NCBI RefSeq assembly: GCF_018304945.1
Contig: NZ_JAGQEE010000001.1
Location: 1,488,001-1,552,000, forward strand
DNA: 64,000 bases
Source: Collimonas humicola
GTDB taxonomy: Bacteria > Pseudomonadota > Gammaproteobacteria > Burkholderiales > Burkholderiaceae_D
Direction of reading: 5' to 3'
Shown: positions 22,287-45,284 of the stretch, one piece after another
Layout of the letters: each line of letters starts with the position of its first letter
Numbering within the stretch: the first letter of the stretch is position 1
The notes under the pieces: model-generated
What the model saw: the letters and a program-made list of their open reading frames with translations, nothing else
What the model was told of the DNA's origin: nothing
The model's database searches: none
Program-made: the position numbers and the translations under genes

Positions 22287-22327
22287 ACAATGCTTAACGA
22301 AACCATCAGGAAGCCGTAAGCATTTGT
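22287..22327. promoter_or_regulatory. 41-bp inverted-repeat element upstream of TAA1
   Basis: Left arm ACAATGCTTA, 20-bp conserved spacer, right arm TAAGCATTTGT. The same 41-bp layout occurs at 25038 and 44589. The left arm, read on the other strand, is TAAGCATTGT, exactly the half-site in front of the S gene at 45316. It is a candidate binding site for the HilA-like regulators, or less likely an RNA hairpin. Confidence 0.6.
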
Positions 22328-22616
22328 TGTTTTTGCATCGAATTAAATAAAAAATGACCCGCTGAAAAAGCCATGGCATTGAAAATGCAATGCAAAAAGC
22401 AAATGCCCTTTTGTCGAAAGCGAACCCGGATTAATTGCCCAAAAGAATTGTTTTGAATTTACGGAAGGACGCGAGGAGACCGCTAGCGTCAAGCTATAAA
22501 GCGCCTAGCCATCAACGGCGAAATATTCTTGATATCGACAAAAATGGCCACCCGCAGGAAATTTGGCGTGGTCCCGGCAATCACGGACGATCCATGAATC
22601 ACGCATTGGATGGTGA

Positions 22617-23945
22617 CTAACGAGAAAATATGTGCGCAAGAATGGCCGGGTATTCCGGATGCTGCTTAAGCGCGGAATTTTCAACGAAGCTCAACAAAAT
22701 CGGCAAATGGCCATACCCCGCGCGCACGGCCTCTTTCACTCTAAGCACCGCTTCGTCAACCAGATCCATGGCAATCAAGGCCGCCAGGTGCGTTATGCGG
22801 ATGTTGACGTTGGCCGTTGCCTGTGCGGCAATCAGCTCCAAGGCGCTGTCCCTGTCGCCGCATTGCGCGAGAACATAGGAGATGATGCCGGCAGCGTAGA
22901 TCCAGGAAGAGCGGCTTAACGTTATTTGCCGTGCGGCGTGCGCCAGTTCCGGCTGCGGATCCGCAAACGCCAGCATGCCCAGCAAATACAGATAGACTTG
23001 CTGGCTGTCTGGATGGATGCGATATGCCTCGCGCGCGTGCTCGACAATATCGATGGCGCTTGCGCCGGCAGCGGCCAGGGACCGTGCATGCATGATCGAT
23101 TGTTCAGGCGAGAAGGGATTCAATTCGATGGCGGAGGAGAACGCCGCGACGGCATCGGCAGCTGCGCCCGTCGCCAGCAGATGCAAGCCGTAATTGAAAT
23201 GCGTGACAGGATTTTCCGGCGACAGAAGCAACGCTTGCTTATGCATGAAGCGAGCTTCATTAAACTGCCATTTGCCATCGAGAAGATTGGCCTTTTGCGA
23301 CTGCAAACCCAATGCGCCAGGCTCGGTGCGCTCGATAGACCTCAGTATATTCTGCGCTTCGTCAATCATTTGCAGACCGCATGGCACTCCGTTGATCGCT
23401 CGACTAGCCATGCATTGGGCCAATACCAGTTTCGCCGGAATGTAATCAGGCGCTTGAGAGATGACATCGTTGATAATCGATCCCGCTCGGTCATAAGCCG
23501 CCGGTGAATGGTTCTGCAGCACTTGCTGCGCATAGAAACATGCAGCCGTTACCGAAGGATGCACCTTGACCGTACCGGATTGACGGCCGCGATCCGATGA
23601 CACCAGGACCGATGCATCGGCTTCCTCTGGCTGGATGGTCAGGCGATATCCGAGCCCATACAATGAATCGATTTTTATCATACCAATATGGGACAGCACC
23701 CGCCGCAGTTGCGCCATGCAGCGCGCAAGACTTTCATTAGACATCCGCCCATTCCATACATGCTGGGCAAAATCCTTTTTTGAAACCGATTTCGGCCATG
23801 CGTGAAGCAACAGACTTAATGCTCCCCTCTCTTTGGGCGGCAGATCCAGTATCGCGTTTTTATAAGCCACAAATCCATGTTGATCGACCGTAAATCCAAC
23901 AGATGCGGGAGCAATGCCCGAAATTTTCCGATGCCAGGGCTGCAT
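22617..23945 (-). CDS. R1: HilA-like regulator, winged helix plus TPR
   Basis: 442 aa. Residues about 15-105 form an OmpR/PhoB-type winged-helix domain, with the segment RMSNESLARCMAQLRRVLSH as probable recognition helix and IDSLYGLGYRLTI as wing. The rest is helical with TPR-like repeats (NPVTHFNYGLHLLATGAAAD, AAFSSAIELNPFSPEQ). No receiver domain or membrane segment is present, so it resembles HilA rather than a response regulator or CadC. It lies upstream of TAA1 on the same strand and is the best candidate activator of TAA1. R2 and R3 are full paralogues, and R4-psi next to TAA2 is a broken close relative. Confidence 0.8.
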   Translation of the reverse strand: MQPWHRKISGIAPASVGFTVDQHGFVAYKNAILDLPPKERGALSLLLHAWPKSVSKKDFAQHVWNGRMSNESLARCMAQLRRVLSHIGMIKIDSLYGLGYRLTIQPEEADASVLVSSDRGRQSGTVKVHPSVTAACFYAQQVLQNHSPAAYDRAGSIINDVISQAPDYIPAKLVLAQCMASRAINGVPCGLQMIDEAQNILRSIERTEPGALGLQSQKANLLDGKWQFNEARFMHKQALLLSPENPVTHFNYGLHLLATGAAADAVAAFSSAIELNPFSPEQSIMHARSLAAAGASAIDIVEHAREAYRIHPDSQQVYLYLLGMLAFADPQPELAHAARQITLSRSSWIYAAGIISYVLAQCGDRDSALELIAAQATANVNIRITHLAALIAMDLVDEAVLRVKEAVRAGYGHLPILLSFVENSALKQHPEYPAILAHIFSR

Positions 23946-24193
23946 TTTCTTTTCTTGTAATATTCGAAAACAACTATTGCTTTATCTCTTACTGTCTGAC
24001 ATTTCTCGTCTGCGATCAGCGCCACAGTCAACGACATGGAATTCAATTAAATAATATTGAAAGCCGTTTTATATTCAGTAATTTCTCCAGCTGATTTCAC
24101 TTGGAAAAAATATCGTTTTCTTCCAAATTCTTCCTGGGCTCTTCTCATGCTATCTGCACTTTGAAGCGTTGTAACGACAATACGCCTTAGCTT

Positions 24194-24224
24194 GCCAAAT
24201 CATCATAAAGACGTAATTATTGGT
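24194..24224. promoter_or_regulatory. Degenerate copy of the 41-bp element upstream of R1
   Basis: The 20-bp spacer (GCCAAATCATC...AAGACG) and right arm TAATTATTGGT match the element consensus. The left arm is poorly kept. It lies about 250 bp before the R1 start, suggesting autoregulation. Confidence 0.45.
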
Positions 24225-24243
24225 TGCAATCAGGCCACTGCCG

Positions 24244-24420
24244 TCATGACTCTGACATACCGCTCCACTCGGCGCGGCGTTGCCTGTTTTCTTCCAGCAC
24301 GTCCTCGAGCATTCGGCGCACCTCGACCTTTCTTCTCGCAATTGCCACGAACGTTTCTTCAGTCGGATGTTCAAAAATATTCGTGTCGCGTCCTTCATCG
24401 GCACTCTGAAATTCAGCCAT
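24244..24420 (-). CDS. 58-aa helical protein between R1 and a DUF4096 gene
   Basis: A short ORF with an ATG at 24420 preceded by GGGAGAA at good distance. It encodes MAEFQSADEGRDTNIF... followed by a strongly charged helix (RRKVEVRRMLEDVLEENRQRR) and ends EWSGMSES. It lies 80 bp downstream of the DUF4096 gene on the same strand and may be cotranscribed with it and R1. Codon use and the ribosome-binding site favour a real gene. No family is recognised. The helix could mediate binding to a partner. Confidence 0.55.
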   Translation of the reverse strand: MAEFQSADEGRDTNIFEHPTEETFVAIARRKVEVRRMLEDVLEENRQRRAEWSGMSES

Positions 24421-24500
24421 CAATTTCTCCCGGATCTGTTCAAATCAGACGCACGCACAAATTCTTCCGCCTGCATCCAGAAATTTCACGCCCCAGCTAC

Positions 24501-24941
24501 TTAAGTCGCCCCTACCAATGACAGCCAGTTCACATCCGCCTCGCTTTCCCTATTTTGCTCCGCGCCGTTTCTGAACGGAGTTACAGAGGCGGTATAAATT
24601 TGACGCTCGACTCTTCTGGTTTTTCTTCTGACGGCGCTTTCCGTCTGCTGATCAGCATATTCGGCAACCTTCTCCATCGCGGCGCGCAGCTCCTTCTCTC
24701 CGCCCAGATCTTGCACGATCTGGTGCCAGCAGCCGCTCTGATTCCAGCGCCTGAACCGCATATAAATGGCATTCCATCCTCCGAATTGAGATGGCAACTC
24801 GCGCCAGCAGCAGCGTCCGGATACATGCAGAAGGACTGCCTCGATAAATAAGCGATTATTGCGCCCGCTTGCGCCAGGAGCACCTGGCCTGCCAAGCAGT
24901 AGCGGCTCCAATTTTTCCCATTGATCATCTCGAAGAATCAT
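24501..24941 (-). CDS. Stand-alone DUF4096 protein (IS5-type transposase N-domain) A
   Basis: 146 aa from the ATG at 24941. Residues 1-85 match the DNA-binding N-domain of IS5-group transposases: LRDDQWEKLEPLLLGRPGAP, then NRLFIEAVLLHVSGRCCWREL and PSQFGGWNAIYMRFRRW. At the point where these transposases carry the first catalytic Asp (usually 'MIDST') this protein reads AAMEKVAEY, and the DDE domain is replaced by a basic tail that ends naturally. No terminal inverted repeats flank it. It may be a decayed transposase or a domesticated DNA-binding protein. The paralogue at 25461-25787 shares both the domain and the early stop, which favours domestication. Confidence 0.6.
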   Translation of the reverse strand: MILRDDQWEKLEPLLLGRPGAPGASGRNNRLFIEAVLLHVSGRCCWRELPSQFGGWNAIYMRFRRWNQSGCWHQIVQDLGGEKELRAAMEKVAEYADQQTESAVRRKTRRVERQIYTASVTPFRNGAEQNRESEADVNWLSLVGAT

Positions 24942-25037
24942 GACTGGCACCCACTAAGTAAGAGATATAAGGCAACCGCAACGTGGTCGGCACAGAATGC
25001 AATATATGTGATTCCCCTCTCCGTGTGACATACAAAG

Positions 25038-25078
25038 ACAATGATTAACGAAATCATCAAGAAGACGTAATCATTTGT
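25038..25078. promoter_or_regulatory. 41-bp inverted-repeat element between DUF4096-A and S1
   Basis: Left arm ACAATGATTA, 20-bp spacer, right arm TAATCATTTGT. Relative to the TAA1 copy, the C-to-A change in the left arm is matched by G-to-T in the right arm, so symmetry is kept. It lies about 97 bp upstream of the DUF4096-A start and also upstream of S1. Confidence 0.6.
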
Positions 25079-25190
25079 GGCGTCTATTCACTTGAAGATG
25101 ATGCGATACAAAGATCACTTACGAAGCGCAGTGAAGAGAATGAAATGCATGCTGGCGAGAAAAAGCTTTACCAAACGATATGGAAATTGA

Positions 25191-25248
25191 CAACCATTGT
25201 GAAAGCCCGCGTAAAGGAATGGACTGCCGGCAGATTGCTCTCTAGGAT
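25191..25248 (+). promoter_or_regulatory. S-type promoter of S1
   Basis: Half-site-like CAACCATTGT (25191-25200), then 19 bp, a -35 box TGGACT (25220-25225), 17 bp and a -10 box TAGGAT (25243-25248). The same spacing recurs in front of the other S genes. Confidence 0.6.
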
Positions 25249-25280: not shown

Positions 25281-25442
25281 ATGGAAATGATCACCGAGGA
25301 CAAAATACTCGATGCATGCATCGATAAAATCTCAAACCTGGCAGCGCTTACGCTTTACGGCATGAATGCTATCGGCCAGGTGCATGTCGCGATCAATGGG
25401 GTGTGCCGCTTTGGGCGGCAGCAGTCGATTAGCCAGACTTAA
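25281..25442 (+). pseudogene. S1: 3'-truncated copy of the S-family gene
   Basis: Encodes 53 residues (MEMITEDKILDACIDKISNL...VHVAINGVCRFGRQQSI). The first 43 align closely with intact S3 at 45316; the C-terminal half (the LLAFKNKL...HPSLPDYRKTLNYAAS region) is lost. The promoter is intact, so a short product could still be made. The truncation point lies 20 bp before the DUF4096-B gene. Confidence 0.65.
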
Positions 25443-25460: not shown

Positions 25461-25787
25461 ATGTCGATATACGGCGAAAAACTAACTGATGGTCACTGGG
25501 AAAAATTAAACTTCATTTTGTCGCTTCCCAAAGGTGCGCATCATTTCAGAAAAGATAATCGTTTGTTCATTGAGGCAGTATTGTGGGTAGTGCTGAATCA
25601 TGAATCATGGCGCAACCTGCCCTCCAGATTTGGAAAATGGCCTGCCCATTACCTCCGCTTGCTCGACTGGCATCAGCGCAAAATCTGGCGCTCCTTGGCA
25701 AGCAATCAGATTGAAGATCAAGAACTGCAATTCCTTTTGAATCAGATTGTGTTGTTCTGCGAGCGCTTTGATCAAAAAAAGCAGTAA
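25461..25787 (+). CDS. Stand-alone DUF4096 protein B
   Basis: 108 aa. LTDGHWEKLNFILSLPKG, then NRLFIEAVLWVVLNHESWRNL and PSRFGKWPAHYLRLLDWHQ match the IS5-type N-domain. The C-terminal part reads DQELQFLLNQIVLFCERFDQ where a transposase would have its first catalytic Asp, and the protein then stops. No terminal repeats are seen. The core pattern (W-EKL, NRLFIEAVL, WR-LPS-FG-W-A-Y) is shared with DUF4096-A, although the two DNA sequences are clearly different, so they are old relatives. A GGAG abuts the ATG. It converges on R2. Confidence 0.6.
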   Translation: MSIYGEKLTDGHWEKLNFILSLPKGAHHFRKDNRLFIEAVLWVVLNHESWRNLPSRFGKWPAHYLRLLDWHQRKIWRSLASNQIEDQELQFLLNQIVLFCERFDQKKQ

Positions 25788-25820: not shown

Positions 25821-27158
25821 TCATTCCGGCGGCATGCGGGAAAACACCTTGGCATGCACCTGGGCGTAATCCGGATGCTGTTTCAAGGCAGCGTTTTCTG
25901 GCACGTTGAGTAAAAAAGGCAGGACGCCAAATCCGGTTTCGGCCGCAGCCTTCACTTTTGCCATCGCCTCGTCAAGCATTCCCATGGCAATTAAGGCCGC
26001 CAGATGTATGCCGTGAACGCTGCTATGCTCTGCAATGATTTCCCGCGCTCCCGCATGATCGCCGCAACGCGCAAGTATGTATGCCACGCCCCTGGACGTG
26101 AGGGCGTGCGCATAGCGGTTCTTTTCCACGAAATGACGTGCGGCGTGGGCGAGTTCCGGCTGCGGATCCACCCAGGCCAAGGTATAGAGCAAAACCACAT
26201 AAGCCCAAGGACTATCCGGATGAGAGAGATAGGCGCTTCGTGCTTGCGCCAGTACTTCGGCCGGATCCATGTTTGCGCAAGCGCAGGCGCGCACCAGCAT
26301 AGTGGCGATGTTCGCTGAAAACGGATTGAGTTGCGCCGCGAAACGGAAAGCGTTAACGGCCTCGGATCCGGCATTGGCGTAGATCAGATGATATCCATAG
26401 CGATAATAAGCGACGTCATCGTCGGGAGACATTTGCAAGGCCCGTTCGTGCGCGCCCCTGGCCTCATCGAAATGCCATTTGCAATCGAGAAGATGGCCGG
26501 TCAGCGATTGCAAGCCTTGCAGATAGGGCTCGCTATCCTGGACGATTCTTAGTTGGTCAAGCGCATCGTCGATTTGCGAGCGCTGTATATTCGCATCAAA
26601 AAACCCCCTCTCGGCGACGTATTGCGCGAGCAACAGCTTGGCCATCATATAGTCGGGAGCCTTGGACACGACATTTCTGAGTATTGATTCAGCTTGGGAA
26701 AAGGCATCCTGCGAACGGCGTTCAAGTAATTGCCGGGCGTGGATGCAAGCCTCGATTAGCGCAGCATGGGGCTTTGCCGCATCGGATTTTGGGGGGGAAT
26801 GCGCAATCGCCGGCACGGCGGACAATCGCCGCACTTTATCCGACAAAATCGCCAGGCGATAACCTTGGCCATATAGGGAATCGATCTGCACGACGCCAAG
26901 ATTGGAGAGAGCCCGGCGCAGTTGCGTAATGCAGCGGGCCAAACTTTCGTCCGACATGCGCCCGGCCCATACTTTTTTTGAAAAATCTTCCTTTGAAACG
27001 ACTTTCGGCCACGCATTCAGCAACAGACGGAAGGCTCCGCGTTCTTTTGGAGGCAAAAAGAGAAGTGAGTCTTTGTAAGAAACAAAACCATCCCGGTCTA
27101 TATCGAACCCGGCGGATACAGGATCTATATCGGCAAGTGCGCCTGATGAATTTTGCAT
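25821..27158 (-). CDS. R2: HilA-like regulator, winged helix plus TPR
   Basis: 445 aa when started at the Met (27158) that aligns with the R3 start; an upstream frame adds 22 residues absent from R3, where the matching position is a stop. The winged-helix domain is at about residues 15-105 (PPKERGAFRLLLNAWPKVVS, RMSDESLARCITQLRRALSN, IDSLYGQGYRL). TPR-like helices follow (DDVAYYRYGYHLIYANAGSE, AFRFAAQLNPFSANI). It is very similar to R3 along its whole length, so the two are a recent tandem duplication; R1 is more distant. No clear copy of the 41-bp element lies directly upstream. Confidence 0.8.
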   Translation of the reverse strand: MQNSSGALADIDPVSAGFDIDRDGFVSYKDSLLFLPPKERGAFRLLLNAWPKVVSKEDFSKKVWAGRMSDESLARCITQLRRALSNLGVVQIDSLYGQGYRLAILSDKVRRLSAVPAIAHSPPKSDAAKPHAALIEACIHARQLLERRSQDAFSQAESILRNVVSKAPDYMMAKLLLAQYVAERGFFDANIQRSQIDDALDQLRIVQDSEPYLQGLQSLTGHLLDCKWHFDEARGAHERALQMSPDDDVAYYRYGYHLIYANAGSEAVNAFRFAAQLNPFSANIATMLVRACACANMDPAEVLAQARSAYLSHPDSPWAYVVLLYTLAWVDPQPELAHAARHFVEKNRYAHALTSRGVAYILARCGDHAGAREIIAEHSSVHGIHLAALIAMGMLDEAMAKVKAAAETGFGVLPFLLNVPENAALKQHPDYAQVHAKVFSRMPPE

Positions 27159-27426
27159 TTCCAGTGGCCCAAAGTATTTCATGCCATCTTTACAATCATC
27201 GATAGCCAAATTCGCATCACGCAAATTCTATCTATTATTCGATACCGATTGTGTCTCTTTCCCATTGAATTTGCTCAACTGAAAAATGCTTCCTCTCTCC
27301 TGGAAAACCTCTTTCGTTAAAAAGATAGTTTGCAGAAAAACTCGCTCTCCGGTTGATCCGAATTTCCTGACGCAGATCAATATGCATTTGACCACGAAAG
27401 ACGTTATATTGAGATTGCCGTTAAAT

Positions 27427-28761
27427 TTATTTTCCGGGCATCCTGGAAAATACCTTGGCGTGCACCCGGGGATAATCCGGATGCTGTTTCAACGCGTCGC
27501 ATTCCGGAACGCTGATTGAAAAAGGCAAGACGCCGAACCCGGTTTCAGCAGCGGCATTCACTTTCTCCATCGCCTCGTCGAGCATTCCCATGGCGACTAA
27601 CGCCGCCAGATGTATTCCATGGGTGCTGCTATGCTTCTCAATGATTTCCAGCGCCCCCGCATGATCGCCGCAACGCGCAAGTACGTATGCTACGGCCCTC
27701 GACGAAAGGGCGTGCGCATAGCGGTTCTTTTGCACGAAATGCCGCGCCGCATGGGCGATTTCCGGCTGCGGATCTACCCAGGCCAGCGTGTAGAGCAGAT
27801 TCACATAAGCTGAAGGACTATCCGGATGAGCTGAATATGCGCTTCGCGCATGAACAAGCACGTCGGCGGGATCCATGTTTGCGCAAGCGTAGGCACGCAC
27901 CAGTCCGACCGCCATATTCGGCGAGAATGGATTGAGTTGAACGGCAGAACGCAAAGCGCTGACGGCCTCGGACGGAGCATTGCTGGTCAGCAGGTGAAAG
28001 CCATAACGATAATAGGCGACGTCATCATCAGGCGACATTTGCAGCGCCTGTTCGTGCGCGCCCTTGGCGTCATCGAAATGCCACTTGCAATCGAGGAGGT
28101 AGCCGATCTGTGATTGCAGGCCTTGCAAATATGGCTCGGCATCTTGAACGGATCTTAACTCGCCAAGAGCATCGTCGATTTGCGAGCGCTGTATGTTCCC
28201 ATCGAAAAAGGCTCTGTCGGCCACGTATTGTGCGAGCAACAGCTTCGCCACCATATAGTCGGGGGCCTTGGAGATCACATTTTTGAGTATCGATTCAGCC
28301 TGGGAAAAGGCATCCAGAGAACGGCGTTCAAGCAATTGCCGGGCGTGGATGCAAGCCTCGACTAATGCGGCATGGGGCTTTGCCACATCGGATTTGCGGG
28401 AATGAACCGCCGCCGGCGCAGGTGATAACCGCCGCACTTTATCCGATAAAATCGTCAGACGATAACCTTGGCCATAAAAGGCATCGATCTCCACCACGCC
28501 TAGATTGGAGAGGGCCCGGCGCAGCTGCGCGATGCAGCGGGCCAAACTTTCATCCGACATGCGCCCAGCCCAGACATTTTTTGAAAAATCTTCCTTTGAA
28601 ACGACTTTCGGCCACGCATTGAGCAGCAAACGAAAGGCCCCGCGTTCCTTGGGAGGCAGAAAGAGAAGTGAATTTTTGTAAGAAACAAAACCATCCCGGT
28701 CTACATCGAACCCGGCGGATGCAGGATCTATATCGGCAAGTGCGTCTGATGAGTTATGCAT
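27427..28761 (-). CDS. R3: HilA-like regulator, winged helix plus TPR
   Basis: 444 aa, near-twin of R2 and in tandem with it. The winged helix lies at about 15-105 (wing: IDAFYGQGYRLTI) with TPR-like repeats to the end (DVAYYRYGFHLLTSNAPSE). The upstream non-coding sequence is also alike between R2 and R3 (ATTCTATCTA...GATACCGATTGT versus ATTCTATCTA...ATGCCGATTGT), so the duplication included the promoter. A broken S gene and its promoter lie upstream on the other strand, the same order as R1-S1 and R4-psi-S3. Confidence 0.8.
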   Translation of the reverse strand: MHNSSDALADIDPASAGFDVDRDGFVSYKNSLLFLPPKERGAFRLLLNAWPKVVSKEDFSKNVWAGRMSDESLARCIAQLRRALSNLGVVEIDAFYGQGYRLTILSDKVRRLSPAPAAVHSRKSDVAKPHAALVEACIHARQLLERRSLDAFSQAESILKNVISKAPDYMVAKLLLAQYVADRAFFDGNIQRSQIDDALGELRSVQDAEPYLQGLQSQIGYLLDCKWHFDDAKGAHEQALQMSPDDDVAYYRYGFHLLTSNAPSEAVSALRSAVQLNPFSPNMAVGLVRAYACANMDPADVLVHARSAYSAHPDSPSAYVNLLYTLAWVDPQPEIAHAARHFVQKNRYAHALSSRAVAYVLARCGDHAGALEIIEKHSSTHGIHLAALVAMGMLDEAMEKVNAAAETGFGVLPFSISVPECDALKQHPDYPRVHAKVFSRMPGK

Positions 28762-29197
28762 TTCCAGCGATCCGAATCATTTCATGCGATCTTTACAATC
28801 ATCGACAACCAAATTTGCATCATTCATATTCTATCTACTATTCAATGCCGATTGTTACGCTTTCCCAAGGGATTTGCATGATAACAAGGTCTCCTCTGAA
28901 GTATCTCCCCCGGATGGACAGCCGCAATTTCCCCATTGTCTTTACATGCAATGCGAATGTTAGTATGGCTAAAAAAGCGCTTCAGCCGAGCAAGGCCTAA
29001 TGCGCTGGGAACGGCACATTGAAACGGATTGCCGGGATTATTTGGAAGCGGACTTGCAGATGGGCTGTGGCAAAAGTCATTGCATATGCAGCTTCAAATT
29101 TCAATGCGTCCGGCCCGATCCGGATAGCTTGACTTGACGCTATCGGAGCTTGGCTAGTGCCTGGCACTCCTCCTGAAAGCATGCAAATTATTCGCAA
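28762..29197. other. Intergenic region upstream of R3
   Basis: About 430 bp with only short overlapping frames on both strands and no recognisable protein. The first 100 bp resemble the R2 upstream sequence and should hold the R3 promoter. The rest looks degenerate. Confidence 0.4.
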
Positions 29198-29271
29198 ACA
29201 ATGATGCAATTGATAATCATTGTAAAAACTCTCCGAAAGCTATGGACCGATGGCAGCTTGATCTCTAAGAT
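29198..29271 (+). promoter_or_regulatory. S-type promoter with a perfect palindrome
   Basis: ACAATGAT / ATCATTGT inverted repeat at 29198-29223; its right side is the half-site TAATCATTGT (29214-29223). The -35 TGGACC follows at 29243-29248, then 17 bp and the -10 TAAGAT at 29266-29271. Spacing is identical to that at S1 and S3, although the gene behind it is broken. Confidence 0.6.
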
Positions 29272-31532: not shown

Positions 31533-31846
31533 GGAAACCGCAGCGGCCGCGATCTGGCTGGCATTCGCCAGCACCGCGATTCGCTGAAAATCACGCACTA
31601 AAGCCGATGCCGGATCGGATTGCCAGCCGTTGCGATTTCTTTTCCGCGAGCAAGGAGTCGCGCCTCTCCAGGCAGGTAGGCAAGCAATCATGAAACGCGA
31701 TTGTTTCAGATAATTCTTCAGAAGACGCAACGAGACACGGCGAATCCACGTCTGTTCGGCAACGGCAAACCGCGCGATTCTGCATTCCATATGCGTTGAT
31801 TGCGCGTCAAAAGACACACATCATTTTCTATTCATGATGAATTTGA
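31533..31846. other. Region without a convincing gene, between methyltransferase and S2
   Basis: Several short minus-strand frames overlap here (one of 64 codons at 31591-31785, another of 137 codons running into the methyltransferase). None has a recognisable domain or a clear ribosome-binding site. It may be decayed coding DNA. Confidence 0.35.
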
Positions 31847-31904
31847 AAACTCTTGTGAAATGCCGCCCAAGCGAATAGACAGACAGTCTATCTATCCCTA
31901 ATAT
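31847..31904 (+). promoter_or_regulatory. S-type promoter of S2
   Basis: -35 TAGACA (31876-31881), 17 bp, -10 TAATAT (31899-31904): the same layout as the other S promoters with a better -10. The upstream half-site at 31847-31856 (AAACTCTTGT) is only partly kept, so control may differ. Confidence 0.5.
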
Positions 31905-31948
31905 CCTCTTAACTATATCTATGGCAGTTCTGTTTTCTGGAGCAGGTA

Positions 31949-32230: not shown

Positions 32231-32299
32231 CCAGTTGCTGACTGTCCTCGCTACTTCTTCGTATGGCGTTGCCAGGTGCTTTGCAATGTCGAAATAAAA

Positions 32300-38200: not shown

Positions 38201-41200
38201 TCGTTGTGCTCAGGCCAGTCGACAGCGAACCAATGTTGCTGGCATTGGTACTGATGCCAGTCGAGGTCGACGTCGACAGCGAGGTCACATTGCTGTTGGT
38301 CGTGCTCAAGCCGGTCGACAACGAACCCACATTGCTATTCGTCGTACTCAGGCCAGTGGACAGTGAATTCACTCCGCTTTGCGCTGTGCTGATGCCCGTC
38401 GAGGTTGAAGTCGACAACGACGTCACATTACTATTGGTGGAGCTCAATCCAGTCGACAGCGAGCCGATATTGCTGGCGTTGGTGCTGATACCAGTCGAAG
38501 TCGAAGTCGACAGCGATGTCACATTGCTATTGGTAGTGTTCAGACCAGTCGACAACGAGCCGATGTTGCTGGCGTTCGTACTGATGCCAGTCGAGGTCGA
38601 CGTCGACAGCGACGTCACGTTGCTGTTGGTCGTGCTCAGCCCGGTCGAGGTCGAAGTTGACAACGACGTCACGTTGCTGTTGGTGGAGCTCAAGCCGGTC
38701 GACAGCGAGCCGATGTTGCTGGCGTTCGTGCTGATGCCGGTCGAGGTCGATGTCGACAGCGAAGTCACGTTGCTGTTGGTCGTGCTCAGGCCGGTCGACA
38801 ACGAACCAATGTTGCTGGCGTTCGTGCTGATGCCGGTCGAAGTCGACGTTGACAACGACGTCACGTTGCTGTTGGTCGTGCTCAGCCCTGTCGACAACGA
38901 GCCGATGTTGCTGGCGTTGGTGCTGATCCCGGTCGAAGTCGAAGTCGACAGCGAGGTCACGTTGCTGTTGGTCGTGCTCAGGCCAGTCGACAGCGAGCCG
39001 ATGTTGCTGGCGTTCGTACTGATGCCAGTCGAGGTCGAGGTCGACAACGAGGTTACGTTGCTGTTGGTCGTGCTCAACCCCGTCGACAGCGAACCGATGT
39101 TGCTAGCGTTCGTGCTGATGCCGGTCGAGGTCGAGGTCGACAACGAGGTTACGTTGCTGTTGGTCGTGCTCAGCCCCGTCGACAGCGAACCGATGTTGCT
39201 GGCGTTCGTGCTGATGCCGGTCGAAGTCGACGTCGACAGCGATGTCACATTGCTATTGGTAGTGCTCAGACCGGTCGACAACGAGCCGATGTTGCTAGCG
39301 TTCGTACTGATGCCAGTCGAGGTCGAAGTAGACAACGAGGTCACATTGCTGTTGGTTGTGCTCAGACCGGTCGACAACGAGCCGATATTGCTGGCGTTCG
39401 TGCTGATGCCAGTCGAAGTCGAGGTCGACAGCGAGGTCACGTTGCTGTTGGTCGTGCTCAACCCAGTCGACAGCGAACCGATATTGCTGGCGTTGGTACT
39501 AATGCCGGTCGAAGTCGAGGTCGACAGCGAAGTCACGTTGCTATTGGTTGTGCTCAGCCCTGTCGACAGCGAACCGATGTTGCTGGCGTTCGTGCTGATG
39601 CCGGTCGAAGTCGACGTCGACAGTGACGTCACATTGCTGTTGGTCGTGCTCAAGCCGGTCGACAACGAACCAATGTTGCTGGCGTTGGTGCTGATGCCGG
39701 TCGAGGTCGAAGTAGACAGCGAGCCAATATTGCTGGCGTTCGTGCTGATGCCGGTTGAGGTTGAAGTCGACAGCGAAGTCACGTTGCTGTTGGTCGTGCT
39801 CAGCCCTGTCGACAGTGAGCCAATATTGCTGGCATTCGTGCTGATGCCAGTCGAAGTCGAGGTCGACAGCGAGGTCACGTTGCTGTTGGTCGTGCTCAAG
39901 CCGGTCGACAACGAACCAATGTTGCTGGCATTGGTACTGATGCCAGTCGAGGTCGACGTCGACAGCGACGTCACGTTGCTATTGGTTGTGCTCAGCCCTG
40001 TCGACAGCGAACCGATGTTGCTGGCGTTGGTGCTGATGCCGGTCGAAGTCGAGGTCGACAACGATGTCACATTGCTATTGGTAGTGCTCAGACCGGTCGA
40101 CAACGAGCCGATGTTGCTGGCGTTCGTACTGATGCCAGTCGAGGTCGACGTCGACAGCGAGGTCACATTGCTGTTGGTCGTACTCAGGCCGGTCGACAAG
40201 GAACCGATATTGCTGGCGTTCGTGCTGATGCCTGTCGAGGTCGACGTCGACAGCGAAGTCACGTTGCTATTGGTCGTGCTCAGACCAGTCGACAAGGAAC
40301 CGATATTGCTGGCGTTCGTGCTGATGCCGGTCGAGGTCGACGTCGACAGCGAAGTCACATTGCTGTTGGTCGTGCTCAAGCCGGTCGACAGTGAACCGAT
40401 GTTGCTGGCGTTCGTGCTGATGCCAGTCGAAGTCGAAGTCGACAGCGACGTCACGTTGCTGTTGGTTGTGCTCAGCCCTGTCGACAAGGAACCGATGTTG
40501 CTGGCGTTGGTGCTGATACCAGTCGAAGTCGACGTCGACAACGATGTCACATTGCTATTGGTAGTGCTCAGACCTGTCGACAGCGAGCCAATGTTGCTGG
40601 CATTGGTGCTGATGCCGGTCGAAGTCGAGGTCGACAGCGAGGTCACGTTGCTGTTGGTCGTGCTCAGACCTGTCGACAAGGAACCAACATTGCTGTTAGT
40701 TGTACTCAACCCAGTCGACAATGAACCGATATTGCTAGCGTTGGTGCTGATGCCGGTCGAGGTCGAAGTAGACAGCGAGGTCACATTGCTGTTGGTTGTG
40801 CTCAGACCTGTCGACAGCGAGCCGATATTGCTGGCGTTGGTGCTGATCCCGGTCGAGGTCGACGTCGACAGCGACGTCACGTTGCTATTGGTCGTGCTCA
40901 GCCCGGTCGATAGCGAACCGATGTTGCTGGCGTTCGTGCTGATGCCAGTCGAAGTCGAGGTCGACAGCGAGGTCACGTTGCTGTTGGTCGTGCTCAAGCC
41001 GGTCGACAACGAACCAATGTTGCTGGCGTTCGTGCTGATGCCTGTCGAAGTCGAGGTCGAGAGCGAAGTCACGTTGCTGTTGGTTGTGCTCAGCCCTGTT
41101 GACAGCGAACCAATATTGCTGGCGTTCGTGCTAATGCCAGTCGAGGTCGAGGTCGACAGCGAAGTCACGTTGCTGTTGGTCGTACTCAGCCCAGTCGACA

Positions 41201-44200
41201 GCGAACCCACATTGCTATTCGTTGTGCTCAGCCCGGTCGACAAGGAACCAATGTTGCTGGCGTTCGTGCTGATGCCGGTCGAGGTCGACGTCGACAGCGA
41301 AGTCACGTTGCTGTTGGTGGAGCTCAAGCCAGTCGACAACGAACCCACATTGCTATTCGTTGTGCTCAGACCAGTGGACAGCGAATTCACACCGCTTTGC
41401 GCCGTGCTGATACCAGTCGAGGTCGAGGTCGACAGCGAAGTCACATTGCTGTTGGTGGAGCTTAAGCCGGTCGATAACGAACCTACATTGCTATTCGTTG
41501 TACTCAGGCCGGTGGACAGTGAATTCACGCCGCTCTGCGCTGTGCTGATACCGGTTGAGGTCGAGGTCGACAACGAGGTCACGTTGCTATTGGTCGTGCT
41601 CAACCCGGTCGATAGGGAGCCGATGTTGCTGGCATTGGTACTAATGCCGGTCGAAGTCGAGGTCGACAACGACGTCACGTTGCTGTTGGTTGTGCTCAAG
41701 CCTGTCGACAACGAACCCACATTGCTATTCGTTGTGCTCAGACCGGTGGACAGCGAATTCACGCCGCTCTGCGCTGTGCTGATGCCCGTCGAAGCCGAAG
41801 TCGACAACGAAGTCACACTGCTGTTGGTGGAGCTCAAGCCTGTCGACAACGACCCCACATTGCTATTCGTTGTACTCAGGCCTGTCGACAATGAATTGAC
41901 GCCACTTTGCGCCGTACTGATGCCCGTCGAGGTCGAAGTCGACAACGAGGTCACGTTGCTGTTGGTCGTGCTCAGACCTGTCGACAAGGAACCGATGTTG
42001 CTGGCGTTCGTGCTGATACCGGTCGAAGTCGAGGTTGACAACGACGTCACGTTGCTGTTGGTCGTGCTCAAGCCGGTCGACAATGAACCAATGTTGCTGG
42101 CATTGGTGCTGATGCCGGTCGAAGTCGACGTCGACAGCGACGTCACACTGCTGTTGGTGGAGCTTAAGCCAGTCGACAACGACCCCACATTGCTATTCGT
42201 CGTACTCAAGCCTGTGGACAGTGAATTCACACCACTTTGTGCCGTGCTGATACCCGTCGATGTCGAGGTCGACAGCGAAGTCACGTTACTGTTAGTTGAA
42301 CTCAAGCCTGTCGATAACGAACCCACATTGCTATTCGTTGTGCTCAGTCCAGTGGAAAGCGAATTCACGCCGCTTTGCGCCGTACTGATGCCCGTCGAGG
42401 TCGAGGTGGACAGCGACGTCACGTTGCTGTTGGTCGTACTCAGCCCTGTCGACAACGAACCCACGTTGCTATTCGTGGTACTCAGGCCAGTGGACAGCGA
42501 ATTCACGCCGCTTTGCGCCGTACTGATGCCCGTCGAGGTCGAGGTGGACAGCGACGTCACGTTGCTGTTGATTGCGCTCAGCCCTGTCGACAGCGAACCC
42601 ACATTGCTATTCGTGGTACTCAAGCCAGTGGAAAGCGAATTCACGCCGCTTTGCGCTGTACTGATACCCGTCGAGGTCGAGGTCGACAGCGAGGTCACGT
42701 TACTGTTGATTGCGCTCAGCCCTGTCGACAGCGAACCCACATTGCTATTCGCGGTACTCAAACCAGTGGAAAGCGAATTCACGCCGCTTTGCGCCGTACT
42801 AATACCCGTCGATGCCGACGTCGACAATGACGACACACTGCTATTAGTCGTGCTCAATCCGGTTGAGGTCGAAGTCGACAACGAAGATACGTTGCTGTTG
42901 GTTGTGCTCAGGCCAGTCGACAACGAACCCACATTGCTATTCGTTGTACTCAAACCAGTGGACAGCGAATTCACGCCGCTTTGCGCCGTACTAATACCCG
43001 TCGATGCTGACGTCGACAATGACGACACACTGCTATTGGTCGTGCTCAATCCGGTTGAGGTCGAAGTCGACAACGAAGATACGTTGCTGTTGGTTGTGCT
43101 CAGGCCAGTCGACAACGAACCCACATTGCTATTCGTTGTACTCAGACCAGTGGAAAGCGAATTCACGCCGCTTTGCGCCGTACTAATACCCGTCGATGCT
43201 GACGTCGACAATGACGACACACTGCTGTTGGTCGTGCTCAATCCGGTTGAGGTCGAAGTCGACAACGAAGATACGTTGCTGTTGGTTGTGCTCAGGCCAG
43301 TCGACAGCGATGCAATTCCACTTGTTGCTGTACTCAACCCTGTTGACGTCGATGTCGACAAAGAGGTGATATTGGAACCCAGCGTGCTTGCCACGCTATA
43401 CAATTGGCTCCCGTTAATAGCGTCTGTACTACCGGCAGTAATCAGCCCAGCGGCGACATTCTGAATCCGACGCTCTGTTCCAGACGCGCCTACGCTCACT
43501 ACGCCTGCCGCGGCACTGGCGCCAGCGAATCCGCTATAAGTGGCAGTTCCTATCGGAGCAGTACTTATACTGGTTGTACCGCCTGTCGCGGCCGATAACG
43601 TTCCGGTCGTCGTAGCCCCTTTGCCAATCGCTACCGAACCAATGACGCTTGATACAGCGCCATCACCTTCGGCAATGCCATAAGCCGCTGTGACCCCTGC
43701 CCCACGTCCGATGGCAATACCCGAAGTGCTGGTAGCCGACACAGAAGACTGGCCACCTAGAGCTATCCCATCCGAGGCTGCCGAAACTGCAGCGGTAGTG
43801 GCGTTATCACCTATCGCAATAGCGCCGGCTCCGGAAGCATTGGCAAAATTTCCAACTGCAACAGAATAACCACCCGCTGCGTTGGAACTATAGCCAACCG
43901 CAGTAGCACTAGAGCCTGATGCGTTCGCACCGCCACCAATCGCAGTAGCATTACCAACCGCAGTGGTGTACTCGCCAAAGGCCGTTGCATTGGTGCCGGT
44001 AGCATTAGCGCTAGCCCCCACGGCTGTAGTAACTGAGCCATTAGCTGTAGTGTTATCACCAATAGCAATCGCACCAGCTCCAGTTGCTGTGGGGGCTACA
44101 TTGTTATCTCCAATTGCAATTGAAGCGGTAGTCGTGGCATTGCCCCCAGCCACGCCATATCCAGCAGCCTCAGCCCCTCCCTCGCATAGCATTACCACAG

Positions 44201-44318
44201 CTGCGAGAGCTCCCAGGACAACCCTTTTTTTTGACTTTCCGCGAGCAGTCGAATTTTCAGATACGGCGGTCCACACGCCTGTAGCTTCATTCCAGATGCT
44301 CCGATAGTTTTTATTCAC
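35262..44318 (-). CDS. TAA2: giant trimeric autotransporter adhesin with Ser/Thr repeat stalk
   Basis: About 3,018 aa, type Vc secretion. The start is the GTG at 44318, where the ESPR begins (VNKNYRSIWNEATGVWTAVS) after AGAG; a further upstream Met adds unrelated residues. The signal core is VLGALAAVVMLCEGGAEA. A YadA-type head (residues about 50-270; GAIAIGDNTTANG-type repeats) and a neck (RRIQNVAAGLITAGSTDAIN) lead into the stalk of 32-residue repeats (about 316-2545). A second neck and head, nearly identical to those of TAA1, precede the anchor. The anchor differs from TAA1 and ends GYGFKWK, so the usual terminal aromatic residue is followed by Lys. The gene is flanked upstream by the 41-bp element and R4-psi. 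Confidence 0.95.
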   Translation of the reverse strand: MNKNYRSIWNEATGVWTAVSENSTARGKSKKRVVLGALAAVVMLCEGGAEAAGYGVAGGNATTTASIAIGDNNVAPTATGAGAIAIGDNTTANGSVTTAVGASANATGTNATAFGEYTTAVGNATAIGGGANASGSSATAVGYSSNAAGGYSVAVGNFANASGAGAIAIGDNATTAAVSAASDGIALGGQSSVSATSTSGIAIGRGAGVTAAYGIAEGDGAVSSVIGSVAIGKGATTTGTLSAATGGTTSISTAPIGTATYSGFAGASAAAGVVSVGASGTERRIQNVAAGLITAGSTDAINGSQLYSVASTLGSNITSLSTSTSTGLSTATSGIASLSTGLSTTNSNVSSLSTSTSTGLSTTNSSVSSLSTSASTGISTAQSGVNSLSTGLSTTNSNVGSLSTGLSTTNSNVSSLSTSTSTGLSTTNSSVSSLSTSASTGISTAQSGVNSLSTGLSTTNSNVGSLSTGLSTTNSNVSSLSTSTSTGLSTTNSSVSSLSTSASTGISTAQSGVNSLSTGLSTANSNVGSLSTGLSAINSNVTSLSTSTSTGISTAQSGVNSLSTGLSTTNSNVGSLSTGLSAINSNVTSLSTSTSTGISTAQSGVNSLSTGLSTTNSNVGSLSTGLSTTNSNVTSLSTSTSTGISTAQSGVNSLSTGLSTTNSNVGSLSTGLSSTNSNVTSLSTSTSTGISTAQSGVNSLSTGLSTTNSNVGSLSTGLSSTNSSVTSLSTSTSTGISTNASNIGSLSTGLSTTNSNVTSLSTSTSTGISTNASNIGSLSTGLSTTNSNVTSLSTSTSTGISTAQSGVNSLSTGLSTTNSNVGSLSTGLSSTNSSVTSLSTSASTGISTAQSGVNSLSTGLSTTNSNVGSLSTGLSTTNSNVTSLSTSTSTGISTNASNIGSLSTGLSTTNSNVTSLSTSTSTGISTAQSGVNSLSTGLSTTNSNVGSLSTGLSSTNSNVTSLSTSTSTGISTAQSGVNSLSTGLSTTNSNVGSLSTGLSSTNSNVTSLSTSTSTGISTNASNIGSLSTGLSTTNSNVGSLSTGLSTTNSNVTSLSTSTSTGISTNASNIGSLSTGLSTTNSNVTSLSTSTSTGISTNASNIGSLSTGLSTTNSNVTSLSTSTSTGISTNASNIGSLSTGLSTTNSNVTSLSTSTSTGISTNASNIGSLSTGLSTTNSNVTSLSTSTSTGISTNASNIGSLSTGLSTTNSNVGSLSTGLSTTNSNVTSLSTSTSTGISTNASNIGSLSTGLSTTNSNVTSLSTSTSTGISTNASNIGSLSTGLSTTNSNVTSLSTSTSTGISTNASNIGSLSTGLSTTNSNVTSLSTSTSTGISTNASNIGSLSTGLSTTNSNVTSLSTSTSTGISTNASNIGSLSTGLSTTNSNVTSLSTSTSTGISTNASNIGSLSTGLSTTNSNVTSLSTSTSTGISTNASNIGSLSTGLSTTNSNVTSLSTSTSTGISTNASNIGSLSTGLSTTNSNVTSLSTSTSTGISTNASNIGSLSTGLSTTNSNVTSLSTSTSTGISTNASNIGSLSTSTSTGISTNASNIGSLSTGLSTTNSNVTSLSTSTSTGISTNASNIGSLSTGLSTTNSNVTSLSTSTSTGISTNASNIGSLSTGLSTTNSNVTSLSTSTSTGISTNASNIGSLSTGLSTTNSNVTSLSTSTSTGISTNASNIGSLSTGLSTTNSNVTSLSTSTSTGISTNASNIGSLSTGLSTTNSNVTSLSTSTSTGISTNASNIGSLSTGLSTTNSNVTSLSTSTSTGISTNASNIGSLSTGLSTTNSNVTSLSTSTSTGISTNASNIGSLSTGLSTTNSNVTSLSTSTSTGISTNASNIGSLSTGLSTTNSNVTSLSTSTSTGISTNASNIGSLSTGLSSTNSNVTSLSTSTSTGLSTTNSNVTSLSTSTSTGISTNASNIGSLSTGLNTTNSNVTSLSTSTSTGISTNASNIGSLSTGLSSTNSNVTSLSTSTSTGISTAQSGVNSLSTGLSTTNSNVGSLSTGLSTTNSNVTSLSTSTSTGISTNASNIGSLSTGLSTTNSNVTSLSTSTSTGISTNASNIGSLSTGLSTTNSNVTSLSTSTSTGISTNASNIGSLSTGLSTTNSNVTSLSTSTSTGISTNASNIGSLSTGLSTTNSNVTSLSTSTSTGISTNASNIGSLSTGLSTTNSNVTSLSTSTSTGISTNASNIGSLSTGLSTTNSNVTSLSTSTSTGISTNASNIGSLSTGLSTINSNVTSLSTSTSTGISTNASNIGSLSTGLSTTNSNVTSLSTSTSTGISTNASNIGSLSTGLSTTNSNVTSLSTSTSTGISTNASNIGSLSTGLSTTNSNVTSLSTSTSTGISTNASNIGSLSTGLSTTNSNVTSLSTSTSTGISTNASNIGSLSTGLSTTNSNVTSLSTSTSTGISTNASNIGSLSTGLSTTNSNVTSLSTSTSTGISTNASNIGSLSTGLSTTNSNVISLSTSTSTGISTNASNIGSLSTGLSTTNSNVTSLSTSTSTGISTNASNIGSLSTGLSATNSNVTSLSTGLSTTNNNVSSLSTGVANSLQYDNPGHTSVTLGGVGATTPVTLTNVAAGVRPTDAVNFSQLSSLSTSTSAGINSLSTGLSSTNSNVTSLSTSTSTGISTAQSGVNSLSTGLSTTNSNVSALSTSTSTGLSTAASGISSLSTGLSTTNSSVSSLSTSTSSGLSVATSGINSLSTGVASISTGLGQLTSLTTSMTGVSSLSTSLKPIADASSGAAANGSTIGVTTIGGANSDGTVQTRGTNGTVISNVAPATCSTVKGIDATGSGLCVQATKDGATAFGSNAQATDANTTAVGYRALASQAGSVAIGNNAQATGDPTVAIGQNSLASGNNSVATGAGAQATGNNAVAIGAAAQATGTNSVALGAGSIADQANTVSMGAPGSERRITNVAPGINPTDAVNVSQLNAVQNQIGDVQRIAYSGIAMSMALTGAVMPALDAGEKGVGVGIGSYQGYGALALQFKSISKTGNSAWGAGISTTGKNTGFTIGYGFKWK
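36682..43370 (-). repeat. 96-bp tandem repeat array in TAA2
   Basis: About 70 units of the same 18+14-residue design as in TAA1, again differing mostly at synonymous sites. Units at the N-terminal end carry the AQSGVN variant and extra 14-residue blocks; the bulk carries NASNIG. The 3'-flanking 1 kb (35620-36680) is nearly identical to 16440-17465 in TAA1. Confidence 0.95.
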
Positions 44319-44588
44319 GATATTTCTCTTTAGTTTCGATTTTTTCTGTAATCCGACATTCCCGCGCTCGGCAACGATGTTCCAGCGTCCGCAAACATCC
44401 AAGCGCCTCGGGTCGACATTCCAGAATCGATCAAACTAGTTCCTGAGTTTCACTCTTAGTGAATTTGATAGACTCGGTGATCTGGCTTCTGCAAACTTAT
44501 TTGGATGAAATTAATCTGCATTTCATCGGCGCCCCACTTTGGATATTTGCAAATATAGATGCCAAGTTCATTGAAAAAAGGAACTTCA

Positions 44589-44629
44589 ACAATCGTTCAC
44601 CAAACCATCATGAAGCCGTAAGGATTTGT
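44589..44629. promoter_or_regulatory. 41-bp element upstream of TAA2
   Basis: Left arm ACAATCGTTC, spacer ACCAAACCATC...AAGCCG (20 bp), right arm TAAGGATTTGT. Length and spacer match the TAA1 and DUF4096-A copies; the left arm has drifted. It lies 271 bp before the TAA2 start and just downstream of R4-psi. Confidence 0.55.
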
Positions 44630-44646
44630 TGTTTTCACATCAAAAT

Positions 44647-45105
44647 CTAACGAGAAGGGCAAGGACTTCCATCAGAAATTGCCATACCCCACATGCACAC
44701 CCTCTTCACCTTGAGCACCGCTTCGTCAAGCAGATCCAGGGCAATCACCGCCAGATGCGTTATGCGAATGTTGACGCCGGCCGTTGCCTGTAGGGTAGTC
44801 AGCTCTAATGCGCCGCCCCTGTCACCGCATTGCGCGAGAACATAGGAGATGGCGCCGGCAGCGGCCAGGGACCGCGCATGCATGATTGTTTGTTCCTGCG
44901 AAAGGGGGTTCAATTCAATGGCAGAGCGGAACGCCGCAACGACCTCAGCGACTGTGCCAGTCGCGAGTAGATGCTGGCCAAAATTAAAATGCGTGGCAGG
45001 ATTTTTCGGCGACATAAGCCGCTGGCGAGTGTTTCTGGATAACTTGCCGTACGCAAAAACACGCAGCAGTTATTGAAGGGTTCAGCTGGACCGTGCCAGA
45101 TCCTC
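44647..45105 (-). pseudogene. R4-psi: decayed HilA-like regulator
   Basis: Fragments match R1: TVQLNPSITAACF (R1: TVKVHPSVTAACF), then PATHFNFGQHLLATGTVAEV, then AISYVLAQCGDRGGALEL. The whole winged-helix domain is missing, a large part between the first two fragments is deleted, and about 58 residues are missing inside ARSLAAAG/AISYVLAQ. The reading frame near the end is also shifted. It keeps the same place relative to TAA2 that R1 has relative to TAA1. Confidence 0.8.
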
Positions 45106-45125
45106 AAGAAAGCGTAAGCAATGAT
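45095..45125. promoter_or_regulatory. Possible degenerate element copy upstream of R4-psi
   Basis: Spacer-like GCCAGATCCTCAAGAAAGCG followed by TAAGCAATGAT resembles the 41-bp element's spacer and right arm. It overlaps the end of the R4-psi remnant at a deletion junction, so part of the match may be chance. Confidence 0.3.
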
Positions 45126-45226
45126 GGAGTTTCGTCTTCAGCGCAGTGCGCGTAGCACTCGCAAAAAAAGACACGTCGAATGCTTGCCCGTAAGAACCAA
45201 GTATTACCGAATAAGATTGGAATTGA

Positions 45227-45284
45227 TAAGCATTGTGAAAGATCGCACAAAGCAATGGACTGATGGCGGCCTGATGTCTAGGAT
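45227..45284 (+). promoter_or_regulatory. S-type promoter of S3
   Basis: Half-site TAAGCATTGT (45227-45236), 19 bp, -35 TGGACT (45256-45261), 17 bp, -10 TAGGAT (45279-45284). The half-site equals the reverse complement of the left arm of the TAA1 element. It would sit around -60, a class I activator position. Confidence 0.65.

Follow-up and report, generated by a model that had tools for sequence, protein, structure and literature searches.

In Salmonella the regulator HilA controls SiiE, the giant adhesin of SPI-4 (PMC6272769), and in enteroaggregative E. coli EilA affects eaeX, adherence and biofilm (PMC4210603). EilA and YgeH are HilA-like regulators that lie in an island and have targets both inside and outside it (PMC4210603). 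The 64,000-nucleotide stretch of Collimonas humicola DNA that we have analysed (the window) resembles these systems in that a HilA-like regulator, R1, is encoded in an island with putative targets inside and outside, and in that a HilA-like activator and giant adhesins are predicted to be co-regulated with other island genes. By analogy the system may work like HilA/EilA adhesin control, although SiiE, as described in PMC6272769, is type I-secreted whereas the adhesins here are trimeric autotransporters. R1 probably switches on the adhesins, its own gene and several small genes together. Our search of the literature on HilA with trimeric autotransporters or Collimonas, which mostly covered papers outside subscription journals, found no description of such a regulon. 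The genes concerned are as follows.

22617..23945, minus strand: R1, HilA-like regulator (winged helix plus TPR), the proposed activator
25821..27224, minus strand: R2, paralog of R1 (47%)
27427..28761, minus strand: R3, paralog of R1 (48%)
44695..45103, minus strand: what is left of another R-family gene, immediately upstream of the TAA2 site
16093..22122, minus strand: TAA1, trimeric autotransporter adhesin, with its start codon 164 bp downstream of its site
35262..44318, minus strand: TAA2, trimeric autotransporter adhesin, with a GTG start codon 270 bp downstream of its site
24501..24950, minus strand: DUF4096-A, stand-alone IS5-family N-terminal domain protein
25461..25787, plus strand: DUF4096-B, behind S1, identified from an alignment and from the Pfam match of the G197 ortholog
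25281..25442, plus strand: S1, shortened S-family gene whose first 44 residues match S3
31949..32230, plus strand: S4, S-family gene
45316..45600, plus strand: S3, S-family gene coding for 94 aa with a predicted all-helical fold
32276..32812, plus strand: 178-aa protein behind S4, signal-peptide-like start by eye, no family hit

The N-terminus of R1 is an OmpR-type winged helix of the HilA type (NF009037, E 2.1e-25, matched in two stretches of which the best covers residues 18-104), with PF00486 above cut-off, and its C-terminus matches PF14559 (TPR) above cut-off. HilA itself carries TPRs. Over its full length R1 reaches 89 bits with the HilA/EilA equivalog and 30.5 bits with the YgeH model, far below the cut-offs of 589 and 800, and because the first of these scores lies below the curated equivalog cut-off we describe R1 as HilA-like and do not file it as HilA/EilA. 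The structure model (mean pLDDT 85.9) has a winged-helix-like N-terminus and helical repeats, and the 50 Foldseek matches listed are mostly TPR proteins. The DNA-binding domain is HilA/EilA-like and matches PhoB-type regulators of known structure. As with OmpR/PhoB-type operators, there is a PF00486 winged helix and a site that may be readable as tandem 11-bp units (compare the PhoP-DNA structure, PMC4832192); unlike them, inverted symmetry is the stronger here, and the domain scan found no receiver domain in R1. The predicted recognition helices of R1, R2 and R3 are nearly identical, so that R1 is not distinguishable from R2 or R3 as the binder on this ground. The regions upstream of R2 and R3 hold no profile match pointing at either gene, the S2 site being 422 bp from the R3 start and oriented away from it, and no site was seen in the stretches around R paralogs (∼47% identity) elsewhere in the window's genome (two loci), G130 and G014.

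Eight copies of a 41-bp element lie within one 23-kb island and fall into two classes, T and S, according to the promoters at which they are found.

22287..22327, minus strand: T-class site of TAA1, 41 bp, predicted -10-like TACATT at 22250-22255
44589..44629, minus strand: T-class site of TAA2, 41 bp, predicted -10-like TATATT at 44552-44557
25038..25078, minus strand: T-class site of DUF4096-A, 41 bp, predicted -10-like TATATT at 25001-25006
24184..24224, minus strand: degenerate T-class site of R1, predicted -10-like TAGCAT at 24147-24152
25160..25200, plus strand: S-class site of S1, predicted -35 TGGACT and -10 TAGGAT at 25243-25248
29183..29223, plus strand: S-class site of the S2 remnant, predicted -35 TGGACC and -10 TAAGAT at 29266-29271
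31816..31856, plus strand: S-class site of S4, predicted -35 TAGACA and -10 TAATAT at 31899-31904
45196..45236, plus strand: S-class site of S3, predicted -35 TGGACT and -10 TAGGAT at 45279-45284

An initial annotation had placed the copies before TAA1, DUF4096-A and TAA2 exactly where we find them, along with a degenerate copy before R1 that is present but best placed at 24184-24224 rather than 24194. The motif TAA(G/T)CATTGT, which it had reported as a half-site at 45227 and 29214, occurs exactly there; both occurrences turn out to be the ends of full-length sites, those of S3 and S2, and the full sites of S1 and S4 were absent from its list. The R1 site retains its promoter-distal 28 bp (1 mismatch to the core pattern) with a degenerate promoter-proximal end, and is in better shape in G197 and G014 than in the window. 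A degenerate T-like stretch at 45085-45125 on the minus strand, without a -10 at +31, was not counted as a site.

The 41-bp element is real. Its core pattern, with up to 3 mismatches allowed, occurs four times in the 5.62-Mb genome, in every case within the window, and the reversed control gives 0. A 41-position profile, trained partly on the window's own sites, has 8 matches in the 5.62 Mb at E<=0.05, 8/8 of them in the island, and a smaller profile search at E<=0.01 recovered the identical eight. With a matrix for which three other genomes supplied 21 sites, themselves originally found by starting from the window's sites, the window's eight take ranks 1-8 of 127,920 positions and the score drops from 20.0 to 4.4 bits between them and the next position.

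In the T class (TAA1, TAA2, R1, DUF4096-A) a -10-like hexamer starts 31 bp downstream of the site and the -35 is poor, with 2-4 of the 6 bases of TTGACA (13 sites), while in the S class, mostly S genes, the hexamer starts 42 bp downstream and the -35 is good (4-5 of 6 bases, 10 sites), a difference that would be predicted for T promoters dependent on an activator. The two spacings differ by 11 bp, one helical turn. Averaged over 15 T sites the -10 score has its maximum at +31 (4.27 bits; next best offset -0.26) and over 7 S sites at +42 (5.40; next 1.43), and a TAnnnT hexamer stands at the expected offset in 16/19 T sites and 10/10 island S sites. A strong match in G014 (C27:46691) has no -10 at +31 and no recognised adhesin behind it, and at the G197 site 4575072 the best -10-like hexamer in the 20-59 bp scanned downstream is at 53, not 42. 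A matrix made solely of T sites places S4, S3 and S2 at ranks 5, 8 and 9 of 127,920 window positions, so the two classes are related.

From these data we infer binding at the sites, an activating effect, and R1 as the binding protein. The element would be the binding site of a transcription activator seated just upstream of RNA polymerase, which at T-class promoters, where the site ends 31 bp before the -10, would substitute for the missing -35 box and at S-class promoters would sit 11 bp farther from the -10, with a recognisable -35 in between. The T-class activator is most likely R1, the gene of which lies immediately upstream of the TAA1 site and has a site of its own, suggesting autoregulation. 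Activation of the T class by R1, with autoregulation, is the best explanation that the sequences offer and one that we consider likely. The C-terminal YadA anchor (PF03895) is above cut-off at C11:1504096 and C11:1523268, the ends of TAA1 and TAA2. It counts against the explanation that a T site precedes just 2 of the 13 YadA-anchor matches in the window's genome, a third such gene within the window (55262-58150) having none.

Between the window and G014, a member of another genus, the 41-mer is 86% identical over 5 promoters and the three 20-bp blocks upstream 20, 42 and 46%; the corresponding values for G197 (5 promoters) are 87% and 44, 41 and 46%. Conservation extends beyond the 41-mer, to the 31 bp downstream (68-86% on average) and, at the TAA1 and TAA2 sites, to the 20 bp upstream (75-80%), and the S1 41-mer is conserved less (71-83%). 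Part of the likeness among sites is descent, since TAA1/TAA2 and the S genes are paralogs. That the copies are nothing but recent duplications of promoter DNA, devoid of regulatory meaning, is nonetheless very improbable and largely refuted, as genomes agree better on average in the 41-mer than in the DNA that precedes it, and genes with no kinship to each other (the adhesins, DUF4096, R1 and a sedolisin-type gene in G197) have the element at one and the same distance.

Symmetry tests favour inverted ends, with a tandem 11-bp reading possible, so that the binder may be dimeric, as the initial annotation had suggested, but need not be. The inverted centre has p 0.0015 for 15 T sites and is reached in 0/2000 shuffles for 22 sites, the 11-bp direct period has p 0.0035 for the T class and 0.009 for the 22 sites together, all uncorrected for 43 offsets, and the arms match at >=9/10 positions in just 5/22 sites. 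The initial annotation had further noted that a base change in one arm is matched in the other. This is real for the TAA1/DUF4096 pair and ambiguous over 29 sites because these are related to each other: 4/10 arm pairs are changed on both sides, compared with 3.8 in shuffles, while the covariation score is reached by 2/500 shuffles and the number of paired cells by 5/500. A hairpin or riboswitch acting in RNA would account for the inverted arms and for a covariation score above most shuffles; we give it almost no credence, as arm pairs changed on both sides are no commoner than in shuffles and the element precedes the predicted -10 at almost all sites, which would leave it out of the transcript from that promoter.

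Inverted ends would also suit binding by the stand-alone DUF4096 proteins, domesticated IS5-type transposase N-terminal domains that would bind the element in the way in which they formerly bound the ends of a transposon. DUF4096-A has a T site and is retained in the window's genome, G197 and G014 under purifying selection (dN/dS 0.18-0.25), and DUF4096-B has a dN/dS of 0.11 (two genomes compared). The profile's genome matches are, however, promoter-type sites at a fixed spacing to a -10-like hexamer, and we regard a DUF4096 binder as improbable. Searches of PDB sequences gave best E values of 0.76 for DUF4096-A and 0.099 for the 178-aa protein, and a structure search with the S protein no match at E<=0.001.

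Among the genomes examined, T-class sites were seen in four (G000, the window's own, and G014, G130 and G197), and only these have an R1-type HilA-like gene. In a 195-genome family sample, matches at E<1e-4 are confined to G000, G014 and G130, which have R1 itself or matches of 53-76% identity; weak profile matches in eight further family genomes (E 0.018-0.05) were treated as chance. Of 15 genus genomes, G000, G130 and G197 combine sites at E<=0.01 with R genes at E<=1e-30, and the other 12 have neither. The order site-R1-site-TAA1 is found in G000, G014 and G197, and the G197 sedolisin-type gene also has its site at the common distance. Three G130 sites are near R2-type genes, not R1-type. 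Two G130 sites reach only E 0.003 and 0.009. The four genomes being related, a single inherited island might account for the co-occurrence.

A genome-wide scan, as the initial annotation had proposed, confines matches of the 41-bp profile to the island, but a later S-promoter profile picks up diverged S-type sites elsewhere in the same genome.

C11:759711 and C11:1303354: S-type sites outside the island, strong matches to the S-promoter profile
C22:194179, C11:1012375 and C20:300342: S-type sites outside the island, weak matches to the S-promoter profile

Twenty S genes outside the island were scanned and 5 have a clear site, with TAAGAT (TAnnnT) at +42 in four and TATCCT in one; one more keeps the promoter-proximal half with TAAGAT at +42, three have a weaker site with the hexamer shifted or unclear, and at 11/20 the scan saw no site, the later profile weakly matching 2 of these. 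S-type promoters are found as well in G196 (held out, E 2.5e-17; assembly 86% complete), in G153 (two, both of which had been used to train the model) and, with weak scores, in G117 and G195, genomes where a HilA-like gene was not found and the R1 search gave only OmpR-type matches (E 2e-7 to 4e-6). S-class sites are a related, apparently older type, present also where an R gene was not found, and another factor may therefore act there, alone or beside R1. These promoters and the kinship of the two classes would fit an element whose main binder is a regulator with its gene elsewhere and a wider distribution in the genus, one that also controls S genes in genomes without R, with R1-R3 merely co-inherited neighbours or targets. 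We consider this unlikely, if the most serious of the alternatives, given that T-class sites are found only alongside R1-type genes, that island S sites are closer to T sites than other S sites are (p 0.0075 for 10 sites compared with 11), which would fit adaptation to a factor of the island, and that no site was seen at the S genes of G061, G143, G164 and G175, which have no R gene.

Strong support for the initial proposal, a single regulon whose members share a site, comes from the confinement of the profile, the fixed -10 distance and conservation in two genera and a held-out genome. Its candidate binder, a HilA-like regulator, is favoured for the T class by co-occurrence with R1-type genes and by gene order; for the S class this evidence is insufficient. 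Returning to activation by R1, a tentative extension is that site-R-site-adhesin forms a cassette, portable and regulating itself, into which an older type of promoter was drawn, nearby S promoters having been reshaped toward its operator with the site kept one helical turn further upstream; one activator would then serve two geometries, with the DUF4096 proteins (domesticated transposase domains) as co-regulated helpers.

A study of Collimonas pratensis on a mineral reports adhesin autotransporters to be among its most induced genes (PMC12542777). Beyond the enteric bacteria, the island provides a HilA-like protein connected to giant adhesins with a candidate operator and regulon. It also contains two naturally occurring promoter geometries that differ by one helical turn on related sites, and it is predicted to connect adhesin expression with stand-alone DUF4096 proteins and with S, a family of small proteins that is uncharacterised.

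The three 41-bp copies that the initial annotation had placed at the trimeric autotransporter adhesin genes TAA1 and TAA2 and at DUF4096-A lie exactly where it put them, and a degenerate copy is indeed present before the HilA-like regulator gene R1, best placed at 24184-24224 and not at 24194. The half-sites reported at 45227 and 29214 proved to be gene-proximal ends of full-length sites, and two further full sites were found. All eight point toward the gene they precede:

22287-22327, copy at TAA1
24184-24224, degenerate copy before R1
25038-25078, copy at DUF4096-A
25160-25200, further full site
29183-29223, full-length site ending in the supposed half-site 29214
31816-31856, further full site
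44589-44629, copy at TAA2
45196-45236, full-length site ending in the supposed half-site 45227

Read toward the downstream gene, the three originally listed copies give the approximate consensus ACAAAT..TTACG.CTTC.TGATG.TTT.GTTAA.CATTGT, from which the TAA2 copy deviates at several positions.

The whole-genome motif scan that had been proposed, using a 41-position profile built from 18 sites including the window's own, returned eight sites at E<=0.05, all within C11:1510287-1533236 (contig coordinates), and a smaller profile search at E<=0.01 gave the identical eight. With up to 3 mismatches a 28-bp core matches four times in the 5.62-Mb genome, always inside the window, and the reversed core pattern not at all. 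Because the profile contained the window's own sites, we repeated the ranking with a matrix from 21 sites of three other genomes only; the eight sites take ranks 1-8 of 127,920 positions (scores 59.8 to 20.0, next 4.4), a result not wholly independent since those 21 were found starting from the window's sites. In ungapped comparisons of orthologous promoters, five per genome pair, the 41-mer is 86% conserved between the window and G014, from another genus, against 20, 42 and 46% for three upstream 20-bp blocks; for G197 the values are 87% against 44, 41 and 46%. The 31 bp downstream are also kept (68% for G014, 81% for G197), and so, at 75-80%, are the 20 bp upstream of the sites at TAA1 and TAA2; the least conserved 41-mer is that of S1 (71-83%).

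The sites fall into two promoter classes, T (adhesin genes, R1, DUF4096-A) and S (mostly small S-family genes), according to the predicted -10 element. Scored with a generic -10 matrix, T-class sites (n=15) have their mean maximum exactly 31 bp past the site (4.27 bits, next best offset -0.26) and S-class sites (n=7) at 42 bp (5.40, next best 1.43), a gap of 11 bp or about one helical turn. A TAnnnT hexamer occupies the expected offset, G197 included, at 16 of 19 T-class sites and at all ten S-class sites of the island, the 23-kb region holding the eight window sites, and of its counterparts in other genomes; the T-class exceptions are ATAATT (G014 TAA2), AATATT (G197 sedolisin-type gene) and CGATAC (G014 C27), and at one G197 S-class site a different hexamer scores higher, at 53 bp. 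S-class promoters (10 sites) have predicted -35 elements such as TGGACT or TAGACA, separated from the -10 by a 17-bp spacer; in the T class (13 sites examined) only poor ones are present.

In G197, held out of profile training, the profile matches seven sites, all in one region, one each at TAA1, R1, DUF4096-A, S1, an S4 gene, an S2-type promoter and a protease gene. The protease gene (Pro-kumamolisin/sedolisin type, L104 6544-8880) bears a T-class site whose promoter-proximal end is lost. Among four inspected G014 and G130 matches from outside the training set, three (G014:C22, G130:4325373, G130:2346830) each lie upstream of an adhesin gene with a -10 at +31, and G014:C27:46691 has neither. 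A search within 1.5 kb of 12 T-class sites found adhesin repeats or an adhesin start motif at 11 of them. YadA-anchor matches number 13 in the home genome G000, 14 in G130 and 6 in G014; a third such gene in the window (55262-58150, minus strand; C11:1543265) has no 41-bp site.

Each of R1, R2 and R3 combines an OmpR-type winged helix with TPRs. Against the HilA/EilA model R1 reaches E 2.1e-25, most strongly over residues 18-104, though its full-length score of 89 bits is far under the cut-off of 589; the confident predicted structure (mean pLDDT 85.9) displays the winged helix and TPR architecture, and part of the family profile (residues 16-120) matches structurally characterised regulators of the PhoB family. 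In the family sample R1 is matched at E<=1e-40 in 6 of 195 genomes, and profile matches below E 1e-4 fall exactly in G000, G014 (R1 match 76%) and G130 (54 and 53%); G025, G082 and G100, with R1 matches of only 31-39%, fall outside the 11 genomes that gave a site match. Of the 15 genomes of the genus, G000, G130 and G197 contain sites at E<=0.01 together with R genes at E<=1e-30, and the other 12 contain neither. A sparse order-wide sample of 399 genomes, into which G014, G130 and G197 were presumably not drawn, has R1 (E<=1e-30) in G000 only. The order site, R1, site, TAA1 is common to G000, G014 and G197, and G130 has an R gene, then a site, then an adhesin. Directly upstream of the TAA2 site lies a broken fourth R-family gene (44695-45103, minus strand), accompanied by a T-like degenerate stretch at 45085-45125; this suggests that TAA2 once belonged to a module of site, R gene, site and adhesin like that of TAA1. 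G000, G014 and G130 also have R paralogs (~47% identity) at other loci, and the stretches examined around these hold no site match, favouring R1-type genes as site partners; the matches G130:2346830 and G014:C27:46691 lie ~10 kb from such paralogs, beyond those stretches. In G130, however, sites 2332664, 2335435 and 2346830 are in the vicinity of R2-type, not R1-type, genes.

The inverted ends ACAA...TTGT beat column shuffles (p 0.0015 for 15 T sites, 0/2000 for 22 sites), and direct repetition every 11 bp does so less strongly (p 0.0035 and 0.009), all uncorrected for 43 offsets. Direct repeats are the binding sites of OmpR/PhoB response regulators (PMC4832192), and R1 may bind either as an inverted dimer or as a tandem array.

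S-family proteins (94 aa, four predicted helices) gave no match in family searches, and their genes are present in 10 of the 195 genomes of the family sample, some without any HilA-like gene found. Seven of the ten S-class sites in the island are followed by an S gene; window S2 has a remnant, and behind G197:4578306 and G014:C7:12215 no S gene was found. Among 20 S genes inspected outside the island, a clear S-type site precedes 5, including both in G153; the same scan gave none for those of G061, G143, G164 and G175. An S-promoter profile of 89 positions has 23 matches, spread over 7 of the 15 genus genomes, 20 with an S-family gene beginning just downstream; 12 had been training sites, and 10 of the remaining 11 precede an S gene, a weak G195 match being the exception. 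Outside the island G000 carries five S-type sites, two of them strong and three weak, and the held-out G196 (no R match; assembly 86% complete) a strong one (E 2.5e-17). Since S-type sites thus occur outside the island and in genomes without an R match, the S class is more widespread, and probably older, than R1-R3. A T-only matrix ranks window S4, S3 and S2 as 5, 8 and 9 of 127,920 positions, with S1 below rank 14, and island S sites are more T-like than others (10 against 11; p 0.0075 by a one-sided Mann-Whitney test, optimistic because the sites are related). Two of the ten S-family matches in G000 (C11:1303034, C11:759390) each have another YadA-anchor match ~2 kb away, a hint that S genes and adhesins may be linked more generally.

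Several neighbours share the region. DUF4096-A (24501-24950) and DUF4096-B (25461-25787) are stand-alone IS5 transposase N-terminal domains from which the catalytic part is absent; the former is retained in G000, G197 and G014 (dN/dS 0.18-0.25; 42% relative in G130), the latter in G000 and G197 (0.11), and both look like domesticated transposase domains. Located behind S-class sites, the interval 29687-32812 encodes a GT2 glycosyltransferase, a 178-aa protein whose start resembles a signal peptide and a methyltransferase-like protein that falls slightly short of its Pfam cut-off; they might modify the Ser/Thr-rich adhesins.

From these patterns we infer binding at the 41-bp site, activation and the activator's identity. 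In the closest precedents, HilA controls the giant adhesin SiiE, and EilA controls eaeX and adherence. The best reading is that an autoregulated HilA-like activator, which would control its own gene and the adhesin genes, drives adhesin expression from the upstream 41-bp site, a site type shared by a wider class of S promoters.
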